Below, one piece after another: positions 44,929-55,736 of a stretch of DNA of 64,000 nucleotides. How positions within the stretch are numbered: position 1 is the first letter of the stretch; each line of letters starts with the position of its first letter. Made by a program: the position numbers and the translations under genes. Under the pieces are notes generated by a model. The model saw only the letters and a program-made list of their open reading frames with translations. It ran no database searches and had not been told where the DNA came from. The stretch comes from Shinella yambaruensis (GTDB lineage: Bacteria; Pseudomonadota; Alphaproteobacteria; Rhizobiales; Rhizobiaceae). The stretch spans positions 1 through 64,000 of the forward strand of contig NZ_JALJCK010000010.1 in the NCBI RefSeq assembly GCF_022899355.1, read 5' to 3'.

Positions 44929-45843
44929 TCAGACCTCGTGCAGCACATGGGCGGCCTTCACCGCCGCCGAGGCGCGGTTTTCCACGCCGAGCTTCACGTA
45001 GATCTGTTCGAGGTGCTTGGTCACCGTGCGGGCGCTGAGGCCGAGGATTTCGCCGATATCCCGGTTCGACTTGCCCTTGGCGATCCACAGCAGCACCTCG
45101 GATTCGCGGTGCGTCAGCGCAAAATGCTGGCGCAGCACCTCGTCCTCGGAAAGCCGGTTTTCGGCGGTGAGGCGGAAGAGATATTCGTCCGCGCCGATCG
45201 CGCCGAGAAAGGCGAGCTGCAGGCTTGCCTGGCCCGCCTGGCGGATCGCGAAACTGTTTTCGCGCACGGTGCCGCGGGTCTTCATCCAGGCGTTGATATG
45301 GGTCGAGACCGCGTCGAGGCCGTCGTCGCTGCCCGTCGCGGCGTTGACGAGGCGGGTCGCCTGCGGCGTCGACCAGCGGATCTTTCCCTCGCCGCTGACG
45401 GCCAGCAGATGCCGGCCCGCCGCATCGAGCGCCACCCGCGCGCTCTGGGCGGAGCGGGCGTTGGAGAGATGCACCCGGATGCGGGCGCGCAGTTCGTCGA
45501 TGTTGATCGGCTTGGTAAGGTAATCGACGCCGCCGGCCTCCAGCGCCCGCACCACGTGCTCCGTCTCGGTGAGGCCGGTCATGAAGACGACGGGCACGGG
45601 GCTGACGGCCGGGTTGGCCTTCAGCTTCAGGCAGGTCTCGAACCCGTCCATGCCGGGCATCACGGCGTCGAGCAGGATGATGTCGGGTGTGATGCGGTCG
45701 ACGATGTTGAGCGCCGCCGTGCCGGATGTGGCGATCAGCACGGAAAAGCCGGATTGCTCCAGCGCCTCCGTCAGGAAGCCGAGCGCTTCGGGGGAATCGT
45801 CGACGAGCAGGACGATGTCGCGCGGGGTGGCCGGTTCCGTCAC
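44929..45843 (-). CDS. Response regulator with LuxR-type DNA-binding domain
   Basis: 304 residues. Receiver domain at about 10-125 with DD pair VLLVDDSPEA, phospho-acceptor Asp59 (IILLDAVMPGMDGFE) and Lys in YLTKPIN. The middle (about 135-225) is PAS-like and unassigned. The C-terminal LuxR helix-turn-helix reads LTHRESEVLLWIAKGKSNRD and then LGLSARTVTKHLEQIY. The GTG start at 45843 overlaps the sensor kinase stop (GTGA), ensuring paired synthesis. Likely target: the urt operon, through the TACG...CGTA dyad at 49484-49499. Confidence 0.9.
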   Translation of the reverse strand: MTEPATPRDIVLLVDDSPEALGFLTEALEQSGFSVLIATSGTAALNIVDRITPDIILLDAVMPGMDGFETCLKLKANPAVSPVPVVFMTGLTETEHVVRALEAGGVDYLTKPINIDELRARIRVHLSNARSAQSARVALDAAGRHLLAVSGEGKIRWSTPQATRLVNAATGSDDGLDAVSTHINAWMKTRGTVRENSFAIRQAGQASLQLAFLGAIGADEYLFRLTAENRLSEDEVLRQHFALTHRESEVLLWIAKGKSNRDIGEILGLSARTVTKHLEQIYVKLGVENRASAAVKAAHVLHEV

Positions 45844-48800
45844 GGGCGGCGTCCTTTCTCCGGGTCCATGGTTTTCAGGAAGGCGTCGTAGCCGGCAAGA
45901 TCGAACACCTGCACATAGGCGCGCACCGCCTCCGTGAAGGGCTGGTGTTTCGGCGTGCGGGCGATTTCGGCCAGTTTCGCCTCTATGCCCCGCACATAGC
46001 CGATCTCGCCGAGCCGGATCAACTCTTCCACGTCGTCCCGTTCCGGGATGACGATATGGGTGCGCGCCGGTTCCTCCGCCCGTGCCTCGCCATGGTAGGT
46101 CCATTCGAGCCCCATGTGGAGCGCGAGCTTGTCGGTAAGCTGGCGCAGGTCGAAGGGCTTGGCCAGCGTGTCGTTGTGCCCGGTCTCGGAGGCGGCGGCC
46201 GAGCCGTCGCCGATATTGGCCGAGAGCATGACGACCGGGCCGGGCTGGCCGAGGGCGCGCAGCCGCTCCACCAGTTCCCAGCCGTTCATGCCCGGCATGG
46301 AGATGTCGATGAGGAAGAGGTCCGGCCTCAGCCCCTCGACGAGGGCGAGGCATTCCGCGCCGCCCTTCGCCGTCAGCACGGTGAAATCGAGCGGCCGCAG
46401 TACCTCCTCCATCAGGTTTCGGTGGTCGGCATTGTCGTCGACGACGAGGATGGTGCGCCGCCGCCCCGTATAGCCCTTGATGTGGCGCACCTTCGGCGCC
46501 GTCGGGCGGTCGACGGCCGAGAGCATCAGCCGCACGCGGAATTCCGTGCCCCTGCCGCGCTCGCTCGTCACGGCGATCTCGCCGCCGAGCGTCTGGGTGA
46601 GCAGGCGCGTGATGGTGAGGCCGAGGCCGAGGCCCGGCATGCGGCCGTGTTCGGCATCGCCGCGCTGGAAGGGCTCGAAGATGCGGGAAAGGTCCTTTTC
46701 GAGGATGCCGCGGCCGCTGTCGGCCACCGTGAAGGTGGCGACCTGGCTGCGATAGGAAACGTCGAGGCGGATCGTGCCGCTGTCGGTGAATTTCAGCGCG
46801 TTGGAGATGAGGTTCACAAGGATCTGGCGCAGGCGCTTTTCATCGGTGCGCACATAGGCCGGCAGGTTTTTCGCGCGCTCATGGGTGAAGGCGACGCCCT
46901 TGGCCTGCGCCTGCGGGCGGAACATTTCGATGATCTGGTCGAGGAAATCGTGGATGTTGATCTCGTTCGAATAGACCTGCAGCTTTCCCGCCTCGATCTT
47001 GGAAATGTCGAGCAGGCCGTCGATGAGGCCGGAAAGGTGATCCGCGCTGCGCTTGATGACGCGGATCGCGCCCTGGCGCTGCGGCGGGATGCTCTCGTCG
47101 CGCTCCAGCACCTGCGCATAGCCGAGCACGGCATTGAGCGGCGTGCGCAATTCATGGCTGAGGCCGACGACGTAGCGGCTCTTGGCGCGGTTCGCCGCTT
47201 CCGCCGTCTCCTTCGCCTGCTGAAGCGCGGCGTCCGTTTTCTTGTGCGCGGCGATTTCCTTCAGGAGAAGCGTCGTCTGGCGCGAGGATTCTTCTTCCGC
47301 GACGACGCGGCTGTCATGCGCCAGCACATAGAACCAGCAGACGACGCCGGCCACCACGGCGAAGACGAAGAAGACCACGGCGATCGTGCGCTCCACCACC
47401 GCCGCCGTCTCCGGCGAGCCGGTGCCGACCTGGTGGGCGATCATCGCGAGGATGACGCCCATGCCGGTGATCGACAGGGCCGTCGCGATGCCGTAGCGGC
47501 CGAGGCGGGTGGCGAGCGCCGTCGTCACCGGCTCCGGCAGGATGGTTTTGGCGACGCCCGCGACCTGCGCGTTGAAGCGCGCCTTCGGCTTGCAGAGGTC
47601 GTGGCAGCGGCTGTCGAGCGAACAGCACAGCGAGCAGATCGGCGCGGCATAGGCCGGGCACCAGGCCATGTCCTCCGGCTCGAACGGGTGTTCGCAGATC
47701 GAGCAGGTGATGGTGTCGCGTTGCGCCCAGCTGCGGCGCGGCTTTCGCGCGAGGTAATATTTGCCGCCCGTCCCCCAGGCGATCAGCGGCGAGGCGAGGA
47801 AGGCCGCGACGGCGGCGATATAGGGGGCGAGCGAGGCGGGGATTTCGCCGAAGGCGCCGAAATGCGCGACGAGGGCGACGACGGCGGAAAAGCTCATCGC
47901 GCCGAGGCCGACCGGGTTGATGTCGTAGAGATGCGCCCGCTTGAACTCGATGCCGGGCGGCGAGAGGCCGAGCGGCTTGTTGACGAAGAGGTCGGCCGAG
48001 ATGGTGCAGAGCCAGGCCATGGCGACGATGGAGAAGACGCCGAGCGTTTCTTCCAGCAGCCGGTAGATGCCGAGCTCCATCAAAAGCAGCGCGATCGCCA
48101 CGTTGAAGACCAGCCAGACGACACGGCCGGGATGGCTGTGCGTCAGGCGCGAGAAGAAATTCGACCAGGCGAGCGAGCCCGCATAGGCGTTCATCACGTT
48201 GATCTTCAGCTGCGAGACCACCACGAAGGCGACCATCAGCAGCAGCGCTGCGCTATCCCACGGCAGCATGTAGCCGAAGGCGGTGTAGTACATCTGCGCC
48301 GGATCGGCCGCGCGCGTCGAGGGCACGCCTGTCGAGAGCGCCAGCACGACGAGGAAGGAACCGGCGATCAGCTTCGGCGCGCCGACGATGACCCAGCCGG
48401 AGCCGGCGAGGAAGACGGCGATGCGGTGGTGCAGCTTCCTCTGCCCGTCCGGCGGCAGGAAGCGCAAAAAGTCGACCTGCTCGCCGATCTGCGCCATCAG
48501 CGCGAAGATGACCGCCGAGGCCGCGCCGAACTCAACGAGGGTGAAGGGCGCATAGGTGCCGGGCGGGCCGGAGGGATGATTGAGGCCCGAATAGGCGAGC
48601 CACGCGCCGACCTTTTCCCAGTCCGCGAAGGCGATGAAGACGAAGGGCAGGATGTTGAGCACGATCCAGAACGGCTGGGTGACGAGCTGGAAGCGCGAGA
48701 TGAGCTGCACGCCGTGCGTGACCAGCGGGATCACCACCACGGAGGAGATGATGTAGCCGATCCAGAGCGGTATGCCGAGCGCCAGCTCCAGCGCGCCGGA

Positions 48801-49211
48801 CATGATCGACGCCTCGATGGCGAAGAGGATGAAGGTGAAGCTCGCATAGATCAGCGAGGTCAGCGTGGAGCCGATATAGCCGAAGCTCGCGCCGCGGGTG
48901 AGAAGGTCGATGTCGACGCCGTGGCGGATGGCGTAGCGGCTGATCGGCAGGCCGACGAGGAGGATCATCAGGCTGGCGACGAGGATGGCGGCAAGCGCGT
49001 TGGTCGTGCCGTAGGACATGGTGATCGCGCCGCCGATGGCCTCCAGCGCGAGGAAGGAGATTGCCCCGATGGCCGTCTGCGAGATGCGGTCGGACGAAAA
49101 GCGCCGCGCGCTCTTGGCGGTGAAGCGCAGCGCATAGTCCTCCAGCGTCTGGTTGGCGACCCAGCGATTGTATTCGCGGCGGATCGGGATGATGCGCTGG
49201 CGTGCGGCCAT
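45840..49211 (-). CDS. NCS1 permease-hybrid histidine kinase fusion
   Basis: 1123 residues in one frame. Residues about 1-490 form an NCS1 nucleobase/cation symporter-like domain of about 12 helices (AIGAISFLALEAIGGAITMS, GVDIDLLTRGASFGYIGS). Residues 503-540 hold eight cysteines (C503, C506, C518, C526, C529, C530, C536, C540), a zinc-finger-like insert. Two more helices follow at about 572-632. HisKA has His686 in LSHELRTPLNAV; the ATPase domain has VNLISNALKFTD and GLGLGLT. A receiver has Asp969 (LFLIDISMPGMNG), and a C-terminal tail follows (about 1045-1123). Inference: the permease part senses or carries a nitrogen compound such as urea, allantoin or cytosine and signals to the adjacent regulator. 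Confidence 0.9.
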   Translation of the reverse strand: MAARQRIIPIRREYNRWVANQTLEDYALRFTAKSARRFSSDRISQTAIGAISFLALEAIGGAITMSYGTTNALAAILVASLMILLVGLPISRYAIRHGVDIDLLTRGASFGYIGSTLTSLIYASFTFILFAIEASIMSGALELALGIPLWIGYIISSVVVIPLVTHGVQLISRFQLVTQPFWIVLNILPFVFIAFADWEKVGAWLAYSGLNHPSGPPGTYAPFTLVEFGAASAVIFALMAQIGEQVDFLRFLPPDGQRKLHHRIAVFLAGSGWVIVGAPKLIAGSFLVVLALSTGVPSTRAADPAQMYYTAFGYMLPWDSAALLLMVAFVVVSQLKINVMNAYAGSLAWSNFFSRLTHSHPGRVVWLVFNVAIALLLMELGIYRLLEETLGVFSIVAMAWLCTISADLFVNKPLGLSPPGIEFKRAHLYDINPVGLGAMSFSAVVALVAHFGAFGEIPASLAPYIAAVAAFLASPLIAWGTGGKYYLARKPRRSWAQRDTITCSICEHPFEPEDMAWCPAYAAPICSLCCSLDSRCHDLCKPKARFNAQVAGVAKTILPEPVTTALATRLGRYGIATALSITGMGVILAMIAHQVGTGSPETAAVVERTIAVVFFVFAVVAGVVCWFYVLAHDSRVVAEEESSRQTTLLLKEIAAHKKTDAALQQAKETAEAANRAKSRYVVGLSHELRTPLNAVLGYAQVLERDESIPPQRQGAIRVIKRSADHLSGLIDGLLDISKIEAGKLQVYSNEINIHDFLDQIIEMFRPQAQAKGVAFTHERAKNLPAYVRTDEKRLRQILVNLISNALKFTDSGTIRLDVSYRSQVATFTVADSGRGILEKDLSRIFEPFQRGDAEHGRMPGLGLGLTITRLLTQTLGGEIAVTSERGRGTEFRVRLMLSAVDRPTAPKVRHIKGYTGRRRTILVVDDNADHRNLMEEVLRPLDFTVLTAKGGAECLALVEGLRPDLFLIDISMPGMNGWELVERLRALGQPGPVVMLSANIGDGSAAASETGHNDTLAKPFDLRQLTDKLALHMGLEWTYHGEARAEEPARTHIVIPERDDVEELIRLGEIGYVRGIEAKLAEIARTPKHQPFTEAVRAYVQVFDLAGYDAFLKTMDPEKGRRP

Positions 49212-49299
49212 GTGTTGCTGTCATTCCCCTCGGTTGTCTGGTGGGCCGTGTTCACCCGGCCCTCTTTGGGTGCGTTGTGGCGCGCCATGTCCCCACTCT

Positions 49300-49378
49300 C
49301 CGTCATCCTCGGGCTTGACCCGAGGATCCACACGGCACCCGCGGCTTTGGATCCTCGGGTCAAGCCCGAGGATGACGG
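49300..49378. repeat. Palindromic intergenic repeat, family A
   Basis: Two 31-base arms (49300-49330 and 49348-49378) are perfect inverted copies around a 17-base loop. Each arm contains its own smaller dyad, CCTCGGG...CCCGAGG. The core CCTCGGGCTTGACCCGAGG resembles widespread rhizobial intergenic palindromes. It lies between the divergent kinase and urtA genes and could also fold as an RNA hairpin. Confidence 0.85.
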
Positions 49379-49483
49379 AGGAGAGGGCGGTGCCCGCCCA
49401 ACACACTGACCTTTCGTAGCACACATGTACCGCCCCCGAAATTCCTGCTGCGCCGCAAAAACTTCCCGCTTCTCCCTCCCATC

Positions 49484-49499
49484 TACGCAATATGACGTA
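49484..49499. promoter_or_regulatory. Candidate response-regulator site upstream of urtA
   Basis: TACGCAATATGACGTA: outer TACG/CGTA arms plus a central ATAT, 12 of 16 positions symmetric. It lies 97 bp before the urtA ATG. LuxR/NarL-type regulators commonly bind such TACG-N8-CGTA dyads; the adjacent two-component pair is the obvious candidate. Confidence 0.45.
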
Positions 49500-49595
49500 T
49501 GTGCAGCGCAGCATGCCGGGCCGATAGTCCCCTCCAGCAACGGCTAAAAAACCAATCCGCCCCGTTGCGGTCAAAAGAACAGAGGGGTTCAGACC

Positions 49596-50888
49596 ATGTC
49601 CATCAAGGCGCGCGCCACCGGCGCACTGCTCGCAGCCATTCTCTCGACGACGGCCTTTCATGGCGCGTTCGCGGCCGACGACACGATCAAGGTCGGCATC
49701 CTGCATTCGCTTTCCGGCACCATGGCGATTTCCGAGACGACCCTCAAGGACGCCATGCTGATGCTCATCGAGGAGCAGAACAAGAAGGGCGGCCTGCTCG
49801 GCAAGAAGCTCGAAGCCGTCGTCGTCGATCCGGCGTCCGACTGGCCGCTCTTCGCCGAAAAGGCCCGCGAGCTGGTCTCGGTCAACAAGGTCTCGGCCGT
49901 CTTCGGCTGCTGGACGTCCGTGTCGCGCAAGTCCGTGCTGCCGGTCTTCGAGGAGCTGAACTCGATCCTCTTCTACCCCGTGCAGTACGAGGGCGAGGAG
50001 AGCCAGCGCAACGTCTTCTACACGGGCGCGGCGCCGAACCAGCAGGCGATCCCCGCCGTCGACTACCTGATGGAGAACGAGGAAGTCGAGCGCTGGGTGC
50101 TTGCGGGTACGGACTACGTCTATCCGCGCACCACCAACAAGATCCTCGAAGCCTACCTGATCTCCAAGGGCGTGAAGCCCGAGGACATCATGATCAACTA
50201 CACGCCGTTCGGCCATTCCGACTGGCAGACGATCGTCTCCGACATCAAGAAATTCGGCTCGGCCGGCAAGAAGACCGCCGTCGTCTCGACCATCAACGGC
50301 GACGCCAACGTTCCCTTCTACAAGGAGCTCGGCAACCAGGGCGTCAAGGCCGAGGACATCCCGGTCGTCGCCTTCTCGGTCGGCGAGGAAGAGCTTGCCG
50401 GCCTCGACACCGGTCCGCTGGTCGGGCATCTCGCCGCCTGGAACTACTTCCAGTCCGTCGACAACCCGGCCAACGCCGAGTTCATCAAGACGTGGAAGGC
50501 GTTCACCAAGAACGACAAGCGCGTCACCAACGACCCGATGGAAGCCCATTACATCGGCTTCAACATGTGGCTGAAGGCCGTGGAAAAGGCCGGCACGACC
50601 GATACGGACGCCGTGCTCGACGCGATGATCGGCGTCTCCGTGCCGAACCTGTCCGGCGGCTATTCCACCATGATGCCGAACCACCACATCACCAAGCCGG
50701 TGCTGATCGGCGAGATCCAGGCCGACGGCCAGTTCGAGACCGTCTGGCAGACCTCCGGCCTCGTCGTCGGCGACGAATGGTCGGATTTCCTGCCGGACTC
50801 CAAGGACCTGATCGCCGATTGGCGCAAGCCCATGGAATGCGGCAACTTCAACGTCGCCACCGGCAAGTGCGGTGGCAAGGGGTCGTGA
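49596..50888 (+). CDS. urtA: Urea ABC transporter substrate-binding protein UrtA
   Basis: 430 residues. Sec signal ATGALLAAILSTTAFHGAFA. Mature IKVGILHSLSGTMAISETTLKD, FGCWTSVSRKSVLPVFEELN, LFYPVQYEGEESQRNVFYTGA and INGDANVPFYKEL are diagnostic UrtA segments (type-I fold, amide/urea group), with PNHHITKPVLIGEIQ near the end. AGAGGGG precedes the ATG. It binds urea or short amides in the periplasm with high affinity. A palindromic repeat occupies the 373-bp gap before urtB. Confidence 0.95.
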   Translation: MSIKARATGALLAAILSTTAFHGAFAADDTIKVGILHSLSGTMAISETTLKDAMLMLIEEQNKKGGLLGKKLEAVVVDPASDWPLFAEKARELVSVNKVSAVFGCWTSVSRKSVLPVFEELNSILFYPVQYEGEESQRNVFYTGAAPNQQAIPAVDYLMENEEVERWVLAGTDYVYPRTTNKILEAYLISKGVKPEDIMINYTPFGHSDWQTIVSDIKKFGSAGKKTAVVSTINGDANVPFYKELGNQGVKAEDIPVVAFSVGEEELAGLDTGPLVGHLAAWNYFQSVDNPANAEFIKTWKAFTKNDKRVTNDPMEAHYIGFNMWLKAVEKAGTTDTDAVLDAMIGVSVPNLSGGYSTMMPNHHITKPVLIGEIQADGQFETVWQTSGLVVGDEWSDFLPDSKDLIADWRKPMECGNFNVATGKCGGKGS

Positions 50889-51009: not shown

Positions 51010-51148
51010 CTCCTTCTCCCCTGGGGGGAGAAGGTGCCGGCAGGCGGATGAGGGGGAGGTCGCAGGCGCGAAAGATCAAAATGATCCACTCGTCTCACCC
51101 CCTCATCCGACCCTTCGGGCCACCTTCTCCCCCCGGGGGAGAAGGGGA
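51010..51148. repeat. Palindromic intergenic repeat, family B, between urtA and urtB
   Basis: Left half (about 51012-51055: CCTTCTCCCC, GGGGGAGAAGG, CGGATGAGGGGG) and right half (about 51098-51147) are imperfect inverted copies. Each half also folds as a CCTTCTCCCC/GGGGAGAAGG stem. The sequence differs from families A and C. In the urt transcript it would form a large cruciform-like RNA between the abundant urtA message and urtB. Confidence 0.8.
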
Positions 51149-51261
51149 TGCGGCATCGTCCTGCCACATGCCATTGCCCGGCAGGCAGAGAGGGTCTTCC
51201 CGACGAACCGCCATCCCGACGCTCGGGATGGCCACATCACCCAACGCTTCGAGGCCATGAG

Positions 51262-52881
51262 ATGCAAGCGCGGCTCATCCATCGTTTCCTGCAATGCCTG
51301 CTCATTGCCTTCTGCCTCATGGCGACCGATCTCCGCGCCGCCGATGACCTTCGTGCCATGGTCGACGCGCTCGGCGGCGGCAGTTTCCAGCAGAACCAGA
51401 AGCAGGTCGAGGCGCTGGCGAAGACGGGCGACCCCAAGATCGTGCCGGCGCTCGAAGCGCTTGCCGAGGGCGATCTCTACCAGCGCAAGGCCGATGGCAC
51501 CGTGTTCATCGTCAAGCCGGCCGGCGCCAATTTCAAGCTGATCGACGCGCTGACCGGCGATGAGGTTGGCGAGGAGGCCAAGGCCGCGCTGGAAAAGGTC
51601 AAGGTCAACAACGGCTTGCGTCGGGTCATCCGCGGCGCGCTCGGCGGGCTGACGCTAATGAGCCCCGATACTTCCGTGCGTCTTCAAGCCGCCGGCACGA
51701 TCCTGCGCACGCCGACCGCCGACGCGCTCGATGGCGTGGAGACGGCGCTTGCCGCGGAAACCGACGGCGCGGTGAAGGCGATGCTCGAAAAGGCCCGCGC
51801 CGCTGCCATCCTGGTGTCCGATCGCCCCGTGGCGGAGAAGAAGGCGGCCGTCGCCACGGTGGCCCAGACCGGCGGGCGGGATTCGCTTTCGCTGCTCTCC
51901 GCCGCGCTCGCCTCCGCCGACGAAAGCCTGCGTCCCGATATCGAGATCGGCATCCAGCAGATCGAGGACCAGCTTGCGCTCTGGGCGGCCGGCCAGAACA
52001 TCTGGTACGGCCTGTCGCTCGGCTCGGTGCTCTTGCTCGCCGCCATCGGCCTTGCCATCACCTTCGGCGTGATGGGCATCATCAACATGGCGCATGGCGA
52101 GATGGTCATGCTCGGGGCCTACACGACCTTCGTCGTGCAGCAGGTCATCCGCACCTCCTTTCCCGGCCTGTTCGACTGGTCGCTGGCCATCGCCCTGCCG
52201 CTCGCCTTCCTCGTCACCGGCGCGGTCGGCCTCGTCATGGAGCGCGGCATCATCCGCTTCCTCTACGGCCGGCCGCTCGAAACGCTGCTCGCCACCTGGG
52301 GCGTCTCGCTGATCCTCCAGCAGGCCGTGCGTTCGATCTTCGGCCCGACCAACCAGGAGGTCGGCAACCCGTCCTGGATGTCCGGCGCCTTCGAGCTCGG
52401 CGGCCTCACGGTCACCTGGAACCGCATGTGGATCATCCTCTTCTCGCTCGCCGTCTTCGCCTTCCTGCTCTTCCTCCTGAAGAAGACGCCGATGGGCCTG
52501 CAGATGCGCGCCGTCACCCAGAACCGCCGCATGGCCTCCTCCATGGGCATCAGGACGCCGTGGGTCGACGCGCTCACCTTCGCGCTCGGCTCGGGCATCG
52601 CGGGCATCGCCGGCGTCGCGCTCTCGCAGATCGACAACGTTTCGCCCAACCTCGGCCAGGGCTACATCATCGACAGCTTCATGGTCGTGGTCTTCGGCGG
52701 GGTCGGCAATCTCTGGGGCACGCTGGTCGGCGCCTTCTCGCTCGGCATCCTCAACAAGGTGCTGGAGCCCTATGCCGGCGCGGTGCTCGGAAAGATCCTC
52801 GTGCTCGTGCTCATCATCCTCTTCATCCAGAAGCGGCCGCGCGGGCTCTTCGCACTCAAGGGCAGGGCGGTGGAAGCATGA
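51262..52881 (+). CDS. urtB: Urea ABC transporter permease UrtB
   Basis: 539 residues. An N-terminal signal-like segment is followed by a periplasmic/helical extension of about 225 residues (LRAMVDALGGGSFQQNQKQV onward), which is the UrtB hallmark compared with LivH. Then comes the LivH-type channel: LGSVLLLAAIGLAITFGVMGIINMAHGEM in outline, with TWGVSLILQQAVRSIFGPTN and GGVGNLWGTLVGA. GAGG precedes ATG 51262. Stop overlaps the urtC start. Confidence 0.94.
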   Translation: MQARLIHRFLQCLLIAFCLMATDLRAADDLRAMVDALGGGSFQQNQKQVEALAKTGDPKIVPALEALAEGDLYQRKADGTVFIVKPAGANFKLIDALTGDEVGEEAKAALEKVKVNNGLRRVIRGALGGLTLMSPDTSVRLQAAGTILRTPTADALDGVETALAAETDGAVKAMLEKARAAAILVSDRPVAEKKAAVATVAQTGGRDSLSLLSAALASADESLRPDIEIGIQQIEDQLALWAAGQNIWYGLSLGSVLLLAAIGLAITFGVMGIINMAHGEMVMLGAYTTFVVQQVIRTSFPGLFDWSLAIALPLAFLVTGAVGLVMERGIIRFLYGRPLETLLATWGVSLILQQAVRSIFGPTNQEVGNPSWMSGAFELGGLTVTWNRMWIILFSLAVFAFLLFLLKKTPMGLQMRAVTQNRRMASSMGIRTPWVDALTFALGSGIAGIAGVALSQIDNVSPNLGQGYIIDSFMVVVFGGVGNLWGTLVGAFSLGILNKVLEPYAGAVLGKILVLVLIILFIQKRPRGLFALKGRAVEA

Positions 52882-54041
52882 TCACCTCGTTTCTCGCAAA
52901 AGCCCTCGGGCGCAACATCGTCGTCACGGTCGCGATCCTGCTCACGCTCGCCGCCCTCGTGCCCGCGCTGAATCTTCTGACGGCGCCCGATCACCCGCTG
53001 CACGTGCCGACCTATATCGTCTCGCTGTTCGGCAAGTACCTCACCTATGCGCTGTTGGCGCTGGCGCTCGATCTCGTCTGGGGCTTCTGCGGCATCCTCT
53101 CTCTGGGACACGCCGCCTTCTTCGCGCTCGGCGGCTATGCCATGGGCATGTACCTGATGCGCCAGATCGGCGCGCGCGGCTCCTACGGCAATCCGCTGCT
53201 GCCGGATTTCATGGTCTTCCTCAACTGGAAGGAACTGCCCTGGTTCTGGCACGGCTTCGACATGTTCTGGTTCGCCGCGCTGATGGCGGTGCTGGCGCCG
53301 GGCCTGCTCGCCTTCGTCTTCGGCTGGTTCGCCTTCCGCTCGCGCGTCAACGGCGTCTATCTCTCGATCATCACCCAGGCGATGACCTTCGCCCTGCTGC
53401 TCGCCTTCTTCCGCAACGACATGGGTTTCGGCGGCAACAACGGCCTCACCGACTTCAAGGATATTTTAGGCTTCAACATCCAGTCGCAGGGCACGCGCTC
53501 CGCGCTTTTCGCCGCCTCCGCCGTCGCGCTCGCCCTCTCGCTGGTGATCACCTCCGGCATCGTGCGCTCGAAATACGGAAAGATCCTCGTCGGGGTGCGC
53601 GATGCGGAAAGCCGCACGCGCTTCCTCGGCTACCGGGTCGAACATGTGAAACTCTTCGCCTTCGTGGTCTCGGCGATGATGGCGGGCGTTGCCGGCGCGC
53701 TCTATGTGCCGCAGGTCGGCATCATCAATCCCGGCGAATTCGATCCGGCGAACTCCATCGAGGTCGTCATCTGGACGGCGGTCGGCGGGCGCGGCACGCT
53801 GATCGGCCCCATCGTCGGGGCGATCCTCGTCAACGGGGGAAAAAGCGTCTTCACCGCGGCGTTCCCGGAATTCTGGCTCTTCGCGCTCGGCGGCCTCTTC
53901 ATTCTCGTCACGCTCTTCCTGCCGAAGGGCATCGTCGGCACCGTGCGGCAGTTCGTCGAGCGGCGCCGGGAATATCACAAGGCGAAGGCGGCGGAAGAGG
54001 CGCGCGCCTTCGCGGCGGCAGAACCCCAGGCGGCGGAGTGA
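52878..54041 (+). CDS. urtC: Urea ABC transporter permease UrtC
   Basis: 387 residues of the LivM type. LALDLVWGFCGILSLGHAAFFALGGYAMGMYLMR in outline, FGGNNGLTDFKDILGF (UrtC-typical), VRDAESRTRFLGYRVEHVKL coupling region and TAVGGRGTLIGPIVGAI. An Ala/Glu-rich charged tail ends the protein. ATG 52878 overlaps the urtB stop. It pairs with UrtB in the inner membrane. Confidence 0.95.
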   Translation: MITSFLAKALGRNIVVTVAILLTLAALVPALNLLTAPDHPLHVPTYIVSLFGKYLTYALLALALDLVWGFCGILSLGHAAFFALGGYAMGMYLMRQIGARGSYGNPLLPDFMVFLNWKELPWFWHGFDMFWFAALMAVLAPGLLAFVFGWFAFRSRVNGVYLSIITQAMTFALLLAFFRNDMGFGGNNGLTDFKDILGFNIQSQGTRSALFAASAVALALSLVITSGIVRSKYGKILVGVRDAESRTRFLGYRVEHVKLFAFVVSAMMAGVAGALYVPQVGIINPGEFDPANSIEVVIWTAVGGRGTLIGPIVGAILVNGGKSVFTAAFPEFWLFALGGLFILVTLFLPKGIVGTVRQFVERRREYHKAKAAEEARAFAAAEPQAAE

Positions 54042-54046
54042 CCGGC

Positions 54047-54811
54047 ATGAACACGCTCGCAAGCAATGCAAAACCCACCAGCATCCTCTATCTCGACGGC
54101 GTCTCGGTTTCCTTCGACGGCTTCAAGGCGCTGAACTCGCTCTCCTTCGTCATCGAGCCCGGCGAGCTGCGCGCCATCATCGGCCCGAACGGCGCGGGCA
54201 AGACGACGATGATGGACATCATCACCGGCAAGACCCGGCCGGATGCCGGCGAGGTCTTCTTCAAGGGCACGGTCGATCTCACCCAGAAGGACGAGGCGGA
54301 GATCGCCCAGCTCGGCATCGGCCGCAAGTTCCAGAAGCCGACGGTCTTCGAGAGCCACACCGTGTGGGACAATCTGGAACTGGCGCTCAACCGCAACCGC
54401 GGTGTCTTCTCGACGCTGTTCTATCGCCTGACCGCGGAGGACAAGGCCCGCATCGAGGAAATCCTCTCGACCGTGCGCCTGACCAACCGCAAGGACGACC
54501 TCGCCGCCAACCTCAGCCACGGCCAGAAGCAATGGCTGGAGATCGGCATGCTCTTGGCGCAGGAGCCGGAACTGCTGCTGGTCGACGAACCTGTCGCCGG
54601 CATGACGGACGCCGAGACGGCGGAGACGGCGATCCTTTTGAAGGAGATCGCCAAGACCCGCTCGGTGGTGGTGGTCGAGCACGACATGGGCTTCATCCGC
54701 GACCTCGGCGTCAAGGTGACGTGCCTTGCGGAAGGTTCGGTTCTGGCGGAGGGCTCGATCGATTTCGTCAGCGCCGACCAGAAGGTCATCGAGAACTATC
54801 TGGGGAGGTGA
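54047..54811 (+). CDS. urtD: Urea ABC transporter ATPase UrtD
   Basis: 254 residues, LivG type. Walker A GPNGAGKTT, Q-loop GRKFQKPTVFESHTVWDNLELAL, signature LSHGQKQWLEIGMLL (the H-G-Q-K-Q-W-L-E form is UrtD-typical), Walker B LLLVDEPVAGMTDAE, H-loop VVEHDMGFI. ATG 54047 chosen; an in-frame GTG at 54038 overlaps the urtC stop and is an alternative. Followed by a 229-bp gap containing a palindromic repeat. Confidence 0.95.
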   Translation: MNTLASNAKPTSILYLDGVSVSFDGFKALNSLSFVIEPGELRAIIGPNGAGKTTMMDIITGKTRPDAGEVFFKGTVDLTQKDEAEIAQLGIGRKFQKPTVFESHTVWDNLELALNRNRGVFSTLFYRLTAEDKARIEEILSTVRLTNRKDDLAANLSHGQKQWLEIGMLLAQEPELLLVDEPVAGMTDAETAETAILLKEIAKTRSVVVVEHDMGFIRDLGVKVTCLAEGSVLAEGSIDFVSADQKVIENYLGR

Positions 54812-55040: not shown

Positions 55041-55736
55041 ATGCTGACCGTCGAAAACGCCAACCTCCACTACGGCGCCGCCCAGGCGCTGCGCGGCATC
55101 TCGCTCACGGCCGAGACGGGCAGGATCACCTGCGTGCTCGGCCGCAACGGCGTCGGAAAATCGAGCCTCTTGCGCGCCATCACCGGCCAGCACCCGCTCT
55201 CCTCGGGCTCGGTGGCCTTCAACGGCGTGAAGCTCGACGGCATGGCGCCCTATGGCCGCGCCAGGGAGGGCATCGGCTATGTGCCGCAGGGGCGCGAAAT
55301 CTTCCCGCTGCTCACCGTCCGGGAGAACCTCGAATCCGGCTACGCGCCGCTGAAGCGTTCGGAGCGCTTCATCCCGAACGAGATCTTCAGCCTCTTCCCG
55401 GTGCTGCACACCATGCTCGGCCGGCGCGGCGGCGATCTTTCGGGCGGCCAGCAGCAGCAGCTCGCCATCGGCCGCGCGCTGGTGACACGTCCGAAAATCC
55501 TCGTGCTCGACGAGCCGACCGAAGGCATCCAGCCGTCGATCATCAAGGACATCGGCCGGGCGATCCGGTACCTGCGCGATTCCACCGGCATGGCCATCCT
55601 GCTCGTCGAGCAGTATCTCGACTTCTGCCGCGAGCTTGCCGATCACGTCTATATCATGGACCGGGGCTCGATCGTACACGAAGGCGCCGCCGCGACGCTT
55701 GACGAACCGGAGGCGCGTCAACATCTGACGGTCTGA
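55041..55736 (+). CDS. urtE: Urea ABC transporter ATPase UrtE
   Basis: 231 residues, LivF type. Walker A GRNGVGKSS, GIGYVPQGREIFPLLTVRENLE, signature LSGGQQQQLAIGRAL, Walker B ILVLDEPTEGIQPSI and LLVEQYLDFCRELADHVYIMDRG. The E-G-I-Q-P-S-I-I form is UrtE-typical. ATG 55041 has a GGGAG upstream. It completes urtABCDE; no urease genes are in the window. A weak GGCCGGC/GCCGGCC stem follows at 55759-55784. Confidence 0.95.
   Translation: MLTVENANLHYGAAQALRGISLTAETGRITCVLGRNGVGKSSLLRAITGQHPLSSGSVAFNGVKLDGMAPYGRAREGIGYVPQGREIFPLLTVRENLESGYAPLKRSERFIPNEIFSLFPVLHTMLGRRGGDLSGGQQQQLAIGRALVTRPKILVLDEPTEGIQPSIIKDIGRAIRYLRDSTGMAILLVEQYLDFCRELADHVYIMDRGSIVHEGAAATLDEPEARQHLTV

Follow-up and report, generated by a model that had tools for sequence, protein, structure and literature searches.

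A permease-like hybrid histidine kinase beside the urea uptake genes of Shinella yambaruensis and a predicted operator upstream of urtA

In soil and water, urea is one of the main sources of nitrogen. In Shinella yambaruensis, the gene for a permease-like protein fused to a hybrid histidine kinase lies beside the urea uptake genes urtABCDE, which raises the question of what such a protein senses and whether it controls the neighboring operon. The locus was analyzed within a window of 64,000 nucleotides (the whole stretch of DNA under study), together with relatives of the fusion in other genomes. The neighbor genes and a conserved site suggest that the fusion senses urea or related small amides and turns on the uptake genes. 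The features of the locus are collected in Table 1.

Table 1. Features of the fusion gene, its regulator gene, and the urt genes (window positions)
Feature	Position	Strand	Basis
LuxR/NarL-type response regulator, 304 aa, GTG start	44929..45843	-	PF00072 + PF00196 (GerE)
Permease-like hybrid sensor histidine kinase, 1123 aa	45840..49211	-	ORF + full-length relatives
C-terminal receiver (Response_reg), residues 921-1029, Asp969	46125..46451	-	PF00072, 82 bits
HATPase_c, residues 789-897	46521..46847	-	PF02518, 92.7 bits
HisKA, residues 677-742, phospho-acceptor His686	46986..47183	-	PF00512, 60.6 bits
Two further helices before kinase, residues 569-640	47292..47507	-	AlphaFold2 model
Eight-cysteine module, residues 503-540	47592..47705	-	Conservation over 80 family rows
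NCS1-like (LeuT-fold) permease domain, predicted receptor, residues 1-490	47742..49211	-	AlphaFold2 model + Foldseek; without Pfam match
Predicted operator TACGCAATATGACGTA, inverted repeat TACG-N8-CGTA	49484..49499		Conserved upstream of urtA
Conserved GATAGT, -10-like, 23 nt past operator	49523..49528	+	82-99% per base, 71 aligned loci
urtA	49596..50888	+	TIGR03407, 569 bits, over cut-off
urtB	51262..52881	+	TIGR03409, 440 bits, on ORF 51148-52881
urtC	52878..54041	+	PF02653 (ABC-permease) + position
urtD	54047..54811	+	TIGR03411, 384 bits
urtE (by position)	55041..55736	+	ABC_tran PF00005; order as in annotated S. meliloti record

Architecture and ancestry of the fusion protein

The fusion is encoded by one frame of 1123 codons, which starts with ATG and has no internal stop. 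The ORF, the Pfam profiles, and a structural model agreed with the first-pass annotation that this single frame joins a permease fold, a cysteine cluster, two helices, HisKA/HATPase, and a receiver; His686 and Asp969 were found at the residues it had given, and both PF00512 and PF02518 matched in the HisKA/HATPase profile check that it had proposed. With HisKA, HATPase, and receiver on a single chain by Pfam, the protein is a hybrid kinase, and no HPt domain was found by Pfam on the 1123-aa chain. A scan with the permease half confirmed at least 582 relatives, of which the best 80 were kept. At all 80 kept loci (best 80 of at least 582), the match continued through the kinase, and a full-length copy was present in 20 of 61 genomes (S. 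yambaruensis included); the fusion is therefore not a product of chance. These results confirmed that the observed architecture is real and recurs in full-length relatives, the nearest named one among the best 80 of at least 582 being from Shinella sp. SUS2 (97% across the first 560 residues).

The module between the permease half and the kinase contains eight cysteines (residues 503, 506, 518, 526, 529, 530, 536, and 540), each with a conservation of at least 97% in an 80-row family alignment, and is probably metal-binding. After it, the AlphaFold2 model places two helices, both long (residues 569-598 and 600-659). The linker gave no Pfam match over the cut-off, and Pfam may hold no STAC model. 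A PDB profile search of the N-terminal half was uninformative; among the 60 of 74 matches listed, the mini-G-protein ones, over about 55 positions (best E 0.003), were read as chance. Opposite the kinase, an antisense frame (45726-49409, plus strand) is open for 1227 codons; of nine relatives, eight had shorter antisense frames (71-1013 codons) and one had a longer one (1726), and the frame is probably a high-GC artefact.

The permease half had been described as an NCS1-like transporter. Residues 1-492 matched no Pfam family at E values up to 10, and a PF02133 search of the S. yambaruensis genome did not return the fusion; taken as a single sequence, then, the absent match to the Pfam NCS1 model counts against this description. 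The connection was found through relatives. The family profile reached a stand-alone protein of the phylum draw (L165) at an E value of 4e-41, and L165 itself scored 36.4 bits against the Pfam NCS1 model, with a cut-off of 23.5, so that homology to NCS1 is bridged by this intermediate. In hhalign comparisons, the 80-row family alignment scored 99.9% to L165, 98.2% to L054, and 63% to L031. A direct profile comparison with the true NCS1 protein of the same genome was weak, at 9%, and reached 63% when the alignment was widened.

An AlphaFold2 model of residues 1-660, built from 42 sequences, was of medium confidence (mean pLDDT 68, pTM 0.66). The top solved fold in Foldseek was CodB (7qoa, E 9.5e-6, TM 0.65 by target length); the SLC5 protein NIS (7uuz) was third (E 3.4e-5) and Mhp1 (4d1a/2jln) next (E 4.5e-5), with SGLT2, Nramp, and plant DUR3 urea transporters further down. 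On this medium-confidence model, the LeuT-type fold is nearest to NCS1, and its split from SLC5 is not sharp. The profile search for an SLC5 domain gave zero solute-symporter Pfam matches. The permease half clearly has a LeuT-type fold and likely belongs to NCS1, a placement whose separation from SLC5 leans more on sequence than on fold. The relation to NCS1 thus became visible through the bridging relatives and the fold despite the absent direct Pfam match, and the NCS1-like description stands in this indirect form. Its "nucleobase-type" solute was not retained, because the family-wide neighbor genes are those of urea and short-chain amides.

Two other relatives were also observed. A distant stand-alone relative in the S. 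yambaruensis genome itself (L171:7548-8903; G000:C22) shares 26% identity, and its gene adjoins hydantoinase genes and a gene for an adenine-deaminase-like amidohydrolase. A Streptomyces plasmid relative (L342:9064-10584, 42%) stops after a shortened cysteine stretch, and the kinase is missing in that frame.

Gene surroundings and distribution of the family

The regulator carries a receiver and a GerE helix-turn-helix and is thus of the LuxR/NarL type. Its GTG overlaps the stop codon of the kinase, in keeping with the coupling proposed earlier, and at all 80 kept loci (best 80 of at least 582 relatives) the regulator gene directly follows that of the kinase. On the other side of the kinase, UrtA, UrtB, and UrtD were recognized by NCBIfam models; UrtC and UrtE were assigned solely from their domains and gene order. 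The start codons of the kinase and urtA are 384 bp apart, and the divergent arrangement reported in the first-pass annotation recurs widely: when the architecture was counted beside urtA, as had been suggested there, urtA was divergent in 78 of the 80 kept loci (best 80 of at least 582), at a distance of 0.2-7.8 kb. Two loci depart from this: L126 begins 771 bp from the end of its contig, and L131 has urtA about 9 kb away on the same strand. The interval between kinase and urtA also holds a palindromic repeat (49301-49377) with GGATCCTCGGGTCAAGCCCGAGGATGACG on both arms, and with at most 3 mismatches GGATCCTCGGGTCAAGCCCGAGGATGACG has 71 forward and 71 reverse occurrences genome-wide.

The N-terminal half was matched in 22 of 289 genomes of a class draw (20 in long frames, 2 weakly) and in 58 of 398 genomes of a phylum draw. 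UrtA over the cut-off was present in 20 of 20 fusion genomes of the class draw compared with 63 of 289 genomes overall (hypergeometric 4e-15, kinship ignored). All counts given here are inflated by relatedness.

Gene neighborhoods were compared for 70 wider copies (L168-L238 without L171), in stretches of 10.9-19 kb in all that are uneven at contig ends. A marker-protein search found urt, urease, fmd, or allophanate-hydrolase genes near 65 of the 70 and, at the same thresholds, near none of 20 other histidine kinases, hand-picked from the first relative search; since the markers were picked after the neighborhoods had been viewed, the 65 of 70 is not blind, and the contrast with the controls is the evidence rather than the absolute number. 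Formamidase genes accompanied 39 copies, formamidase with AmiS 3, and FmdD only 1; urt genes were seen at 7, urease at 7, urt with urease at 5, and urt with allophanate hydrolase at 3; none of these was found at 5, one of them at a contig edge. Three shorter variants included in the 70 (about 890-900 aa, too short for a receiver) adjoin genes for a formamidase, an AmiS/UreI channel, and an FmdB-like protein. Among the genomes of the phylum draw, the nearest stand-alone relative adjoins genes for a CN-hydrolase, an ANTAR protein, and a Peripla_BP_5 protein, which we read as AmiC-like.

The phylum draw contained four genomes with two full-length copies each (G571, G487, G551, and G693). These have one copy at a urease-type locus and the other at a formamidase locus, and in some of them the urease-side copy belongs to a urease plus urt locus. 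Copies are not always split by solute, since urtA is the neighbor of both copies in G031 and of both copies on a MAG contig (L124, L125). In a FastTree tree of 81 rows, in which 29 of 78 inner branches were unsupported, the fewest changes between amide and urea context numbered 6. Residue 303 was Asp in 4 of 6 urea clades and mostly Glu in the amide rows.

A relative of the permease half is also held in 342 Klebsiella plasmid records, with about 50% identity in those listed. One such plasmid (L341) carries urt-type genes and a formamidase gene; the operator described below lies between its kinase and urtA genes, and a regulator match that lacks annotation follows the kinase. In the listed plasmid rows, the fusion goes by "ATP-binding protein," by "response regulator," or by ArcB, or no gene is listed for it.

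A predicted operator upstream of urtA

Upstream of urtA lies a clear predicted regulatory site, with the operator consensus TACGTCA-N2-TGACGTA about 110 bp before the gene; 71 aligned sites gave the consensus TACGTCAATTGACGTAT. TACG-N8-CGTA was found in 34 of 34 kinase-urtA spacers, window included. Among the close loci with urtA in reach (best 80 of at least 582 relatives), the operator preceded urtA in 78 of 78, searched over 400 bp upstream or 120 bp inside the start of the UrtA match, and the 1.39 Mb of the 80 kept loci (best 80 of at least 582) contained 88 operator-type sites. In the 44 loci with 0.65-7.8 kb between kinase and urtA, the operator lay 101-123 bp (once 171) upstream of urtA in every case and before the kinase in 2. 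An interpretation of the site as the kinase's own promoter element was rejected for the close relatives, because the site stays with urtA when the two genes are separated.

The operator tracks the presence of the kinase. In class genomes that lack the fusion, it was found before urtA in 0 of 40 stretches (one per genome, from 43 with over-cut-off UrtA; G165, G276, and G312 were left out), and in fusion-lacking genomes of the same family in 0 of 11, results that led us to reject a general urtA feature. Six further fusion genomes, from the family and order, have the operator before urtA, and in L331 it is present though urtA is 9 kb from the kinase. The operator is not universal: it is missing before the kinase at 7 of 7 urease-type loci, before urtA beside two copies of 50-53% identity, and before the non-adjacent urtA of the fusion genomes L315 and L318. 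Among 20 urtA genes that fusion genomes carry away from the kinase, 3 had an exact site. The three genomes are related, the distance is about 295 bp in each, and the sites were read as chance; in the shuffle control for non-adjacent urtA, 35 of 3000 carried an exact site. No clear residue rule emerged when helix-turn-helix sequences of regulators from loci with the site were set beside those from loci lacking it.

In the 70 wider loci, the exact operator was located at most 600 bp upstream of the kinase in 40, compared with 10 of 1400 stretches in a base-shuffle control. It was found at 31 of 39 formamidase loci, at the FmdD-only locus (1/1), at 4 of the 5 loci with none of the markers, at 2 of 3 with urt and allophanate hydrolase, and at 2 of 5 with urt and urease. 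Within the same 600 bp, it was found at 0 of 7 urease loci, 0 of 3 loci with formamidase and AmiS, and 0 of 7 urt loci, where urtA is mostly farther away. In three related genomes (L174, L225, and L226), the fusion and an exact operator before it occur with no urea or amide marker in the stretch examined.

Genome-wide scans were also performed. The extended urtA form occurred once in the 6.87 Mb of the S. yambaruensis genome, at 49484 (reversed control, 1 and 2), and the symmetric consensus with two mismatches occurred at 4 places, compared with 11 for the reversed control; the two-mismatch scan of this genome alone proves nothing. The only exact place of the symmetric consensus in the genome lies before ureE in the urease cluster. 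In 18 fusion genomes, at most one mismatch gave 13 places, 5 before urtA, 5 before ureE, and 3 elsewhere, with 1 for the reversed control of the 18 genomes; the ureE-upstream places fell in 5 of 11 genus mates. In 18 fusion-lacking genomes, 3 places were found at this threshold, none beside urtA or ureE (reversed control, 10), and these mates may lack a urease cluster. The sequence at the ureE site (L343 1-3016; G000:C31) has a GGDEF gene between the end of ureC and ureE, followed by the exact operator consensus. The ureE site is only suggestive, because it sits within a hairpin, which after the GGDEF gene may be a terminator.

Proposed mechanism and comparison with known systems

We consider it likely that the fusion is a transporter-derived urea/amide receptor whose regulator would activate urtABCDE. 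The link between a transporter-like sensor kinase and urea uptake, already drawn in the first-pass annotation, was borne out by the divergence of urtA (78/80) and the likely operator before it (78/78). Starting from the observed and conserved architecture, the urea and amide genes around it, and the conservation of the operator, a mechanism can be proposed in which the permease-fold domain would bind urea or a close small amide, with binding rather than transport as the signal. Ligand binding to the permease fold is most likely passed to the kinase, by analogy with CbrA and Ks-Amt5; here the cysteine module and the two helices would relay it and modulate the fused histidine kinase. Phosphate would then pass to the co-encoded LuxR-type regulator, which is predicted to bind TACGTCA-N2-TGACGTA and thereby to activate urtABCDE. 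The GATAGT may act as a -10-like element, and an operator centered about 32 bp before it would be consistent with activation. A broader proposal seems to us evenly balanced between right and wrong, namely that these proteins are widespread proteobacterial receptors for urea and short-chain amides, derived from an NCS1-type permease, coupled through metal-binding cysteines, repeatedly re-aimed between formamide and urea operons, and served by one operator type in many lineages.

Other explanations have to be weighed against this. The sensor might bind a nucleobase, hydantoin, or allantoin, with urea uptake turned on since their breakdown releases urea. CodB (cytosine) is the best solved fold, Mhp1 (hydantoin) is close, and the distant stand-alone relative at 26% identity in the same genome adjoins a hydantoinase gene. 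However, a search of the phylum draw with urea and amide markers showed the fusion flanked by formamidase, urease, AmiS/UreI, and urt genes, and the nearest stand-alone relative is part of an amidase-type cluster; we regard nucleobase-type ligands as unlikely. It also appears improbable that the permease half senses a general cue (nitrogen shortage, ammonium, pH, or membrane energy) and that the regulator merely times the use of urea and amides. Consistent with such a cue, an S. meliloti acid-shift study describes, in the excerpted text, a urea/short-chain-amide-like ABC system in a nitrogen cluster (PMC2651895), and the promoter of the likely orthologue SMb20609 is bound by PhaR according to excerpts of PMC12542648. 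In contrast, the division of copies between urease and formamidase loci in four genomes suggests different solutes rather than one general cue.

We think it very improbable that the operator serves another regulator and that the kinase merely neighbors the urt genes. Several fusion loci are without the site, the pairing of operator and regulator is predicted from sequence, and the urea operon may also respond to general nitrogen control. Nevertheless, the site is absent from 51 of 51 urtA-upstream stretches of fusion-lacking genomes and is common to urt and fmd promoters linked to the fusion.

The fusion is a variant of transporter-kinase sensor, probably for urea and small amides. Transporter-kinase fusions as such are already known; what is new is the likely operator TACGTCA-N2-TGACGTA at urtA. 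The family supplies a receptor, a regulator, and an operator that are testable together in a rhizobium, and its natural paralogues, seemingly differing in solute (urea versus formamide), bear on how a transporter becomes a receptor.

In the open-licence literature, no NCS1-type or urea- or amide-sensing transporter-kinase was found. On S. meliloti pSymB (L340), a kinase-regulator pair adjoins genes for a dicarboxylate symporter and a sensor kinase and then dctD, and by this gene order it is the likely orthologue of the pair described here. The pair would correspond to the locus tags SMb20609/SMb20610, named as histidine kinase and response regulator in the excerpted text of PMC12542648, where SMb20609 is among the targets remaining functionally uncharacterized; smb20602-20605, which resemble urea/short-chain amide transport in excerpts of PMC2651895, would be the urt genes beside it. 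In Methylophilus methylotrophus, fmdCABDEF serves the uptake of formamide and of short-chain amides and urea and is induced by formamide and urea, according to the excerpted text of PMC10781810. Clusters of the fmd type flank many relatives of the fusion, but that excerpt lists a putative positive regulator among the fmd genes and names no permease-like kinase.

Ks-Amt5 likewise uses the fold of a nitrogen-nutrient transporter as the sensor of a kinase, and excerpts of PMC5764959 describe it as binding ammonium without translocating it; it differs in its Amt fold and in its ligand, ammonium. CodB and Mhp1 (PF02133) resemble the permease half in predicted fold and through the bridging relatives, whereas the fusion lacks a Pfam match and has a kinase and an eight-cysteine module attached. 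The SLC5/STAC kinases CbrA, CrbS, and RpuS share the basic plan of a solute-transporter domain fused to a histidine kinase, and RpuS/R controls a transporter gene in Sinorhizobium (excerpts of PMC13022988 and PMC9100948). Compared with these kinases, the fusion bridges to NCS1 by sequence, has CodB as its best fold with the SLC5 protein NIS third, carries a cysteine module between permease and kinase, and is surrounded by urea and amide genes.
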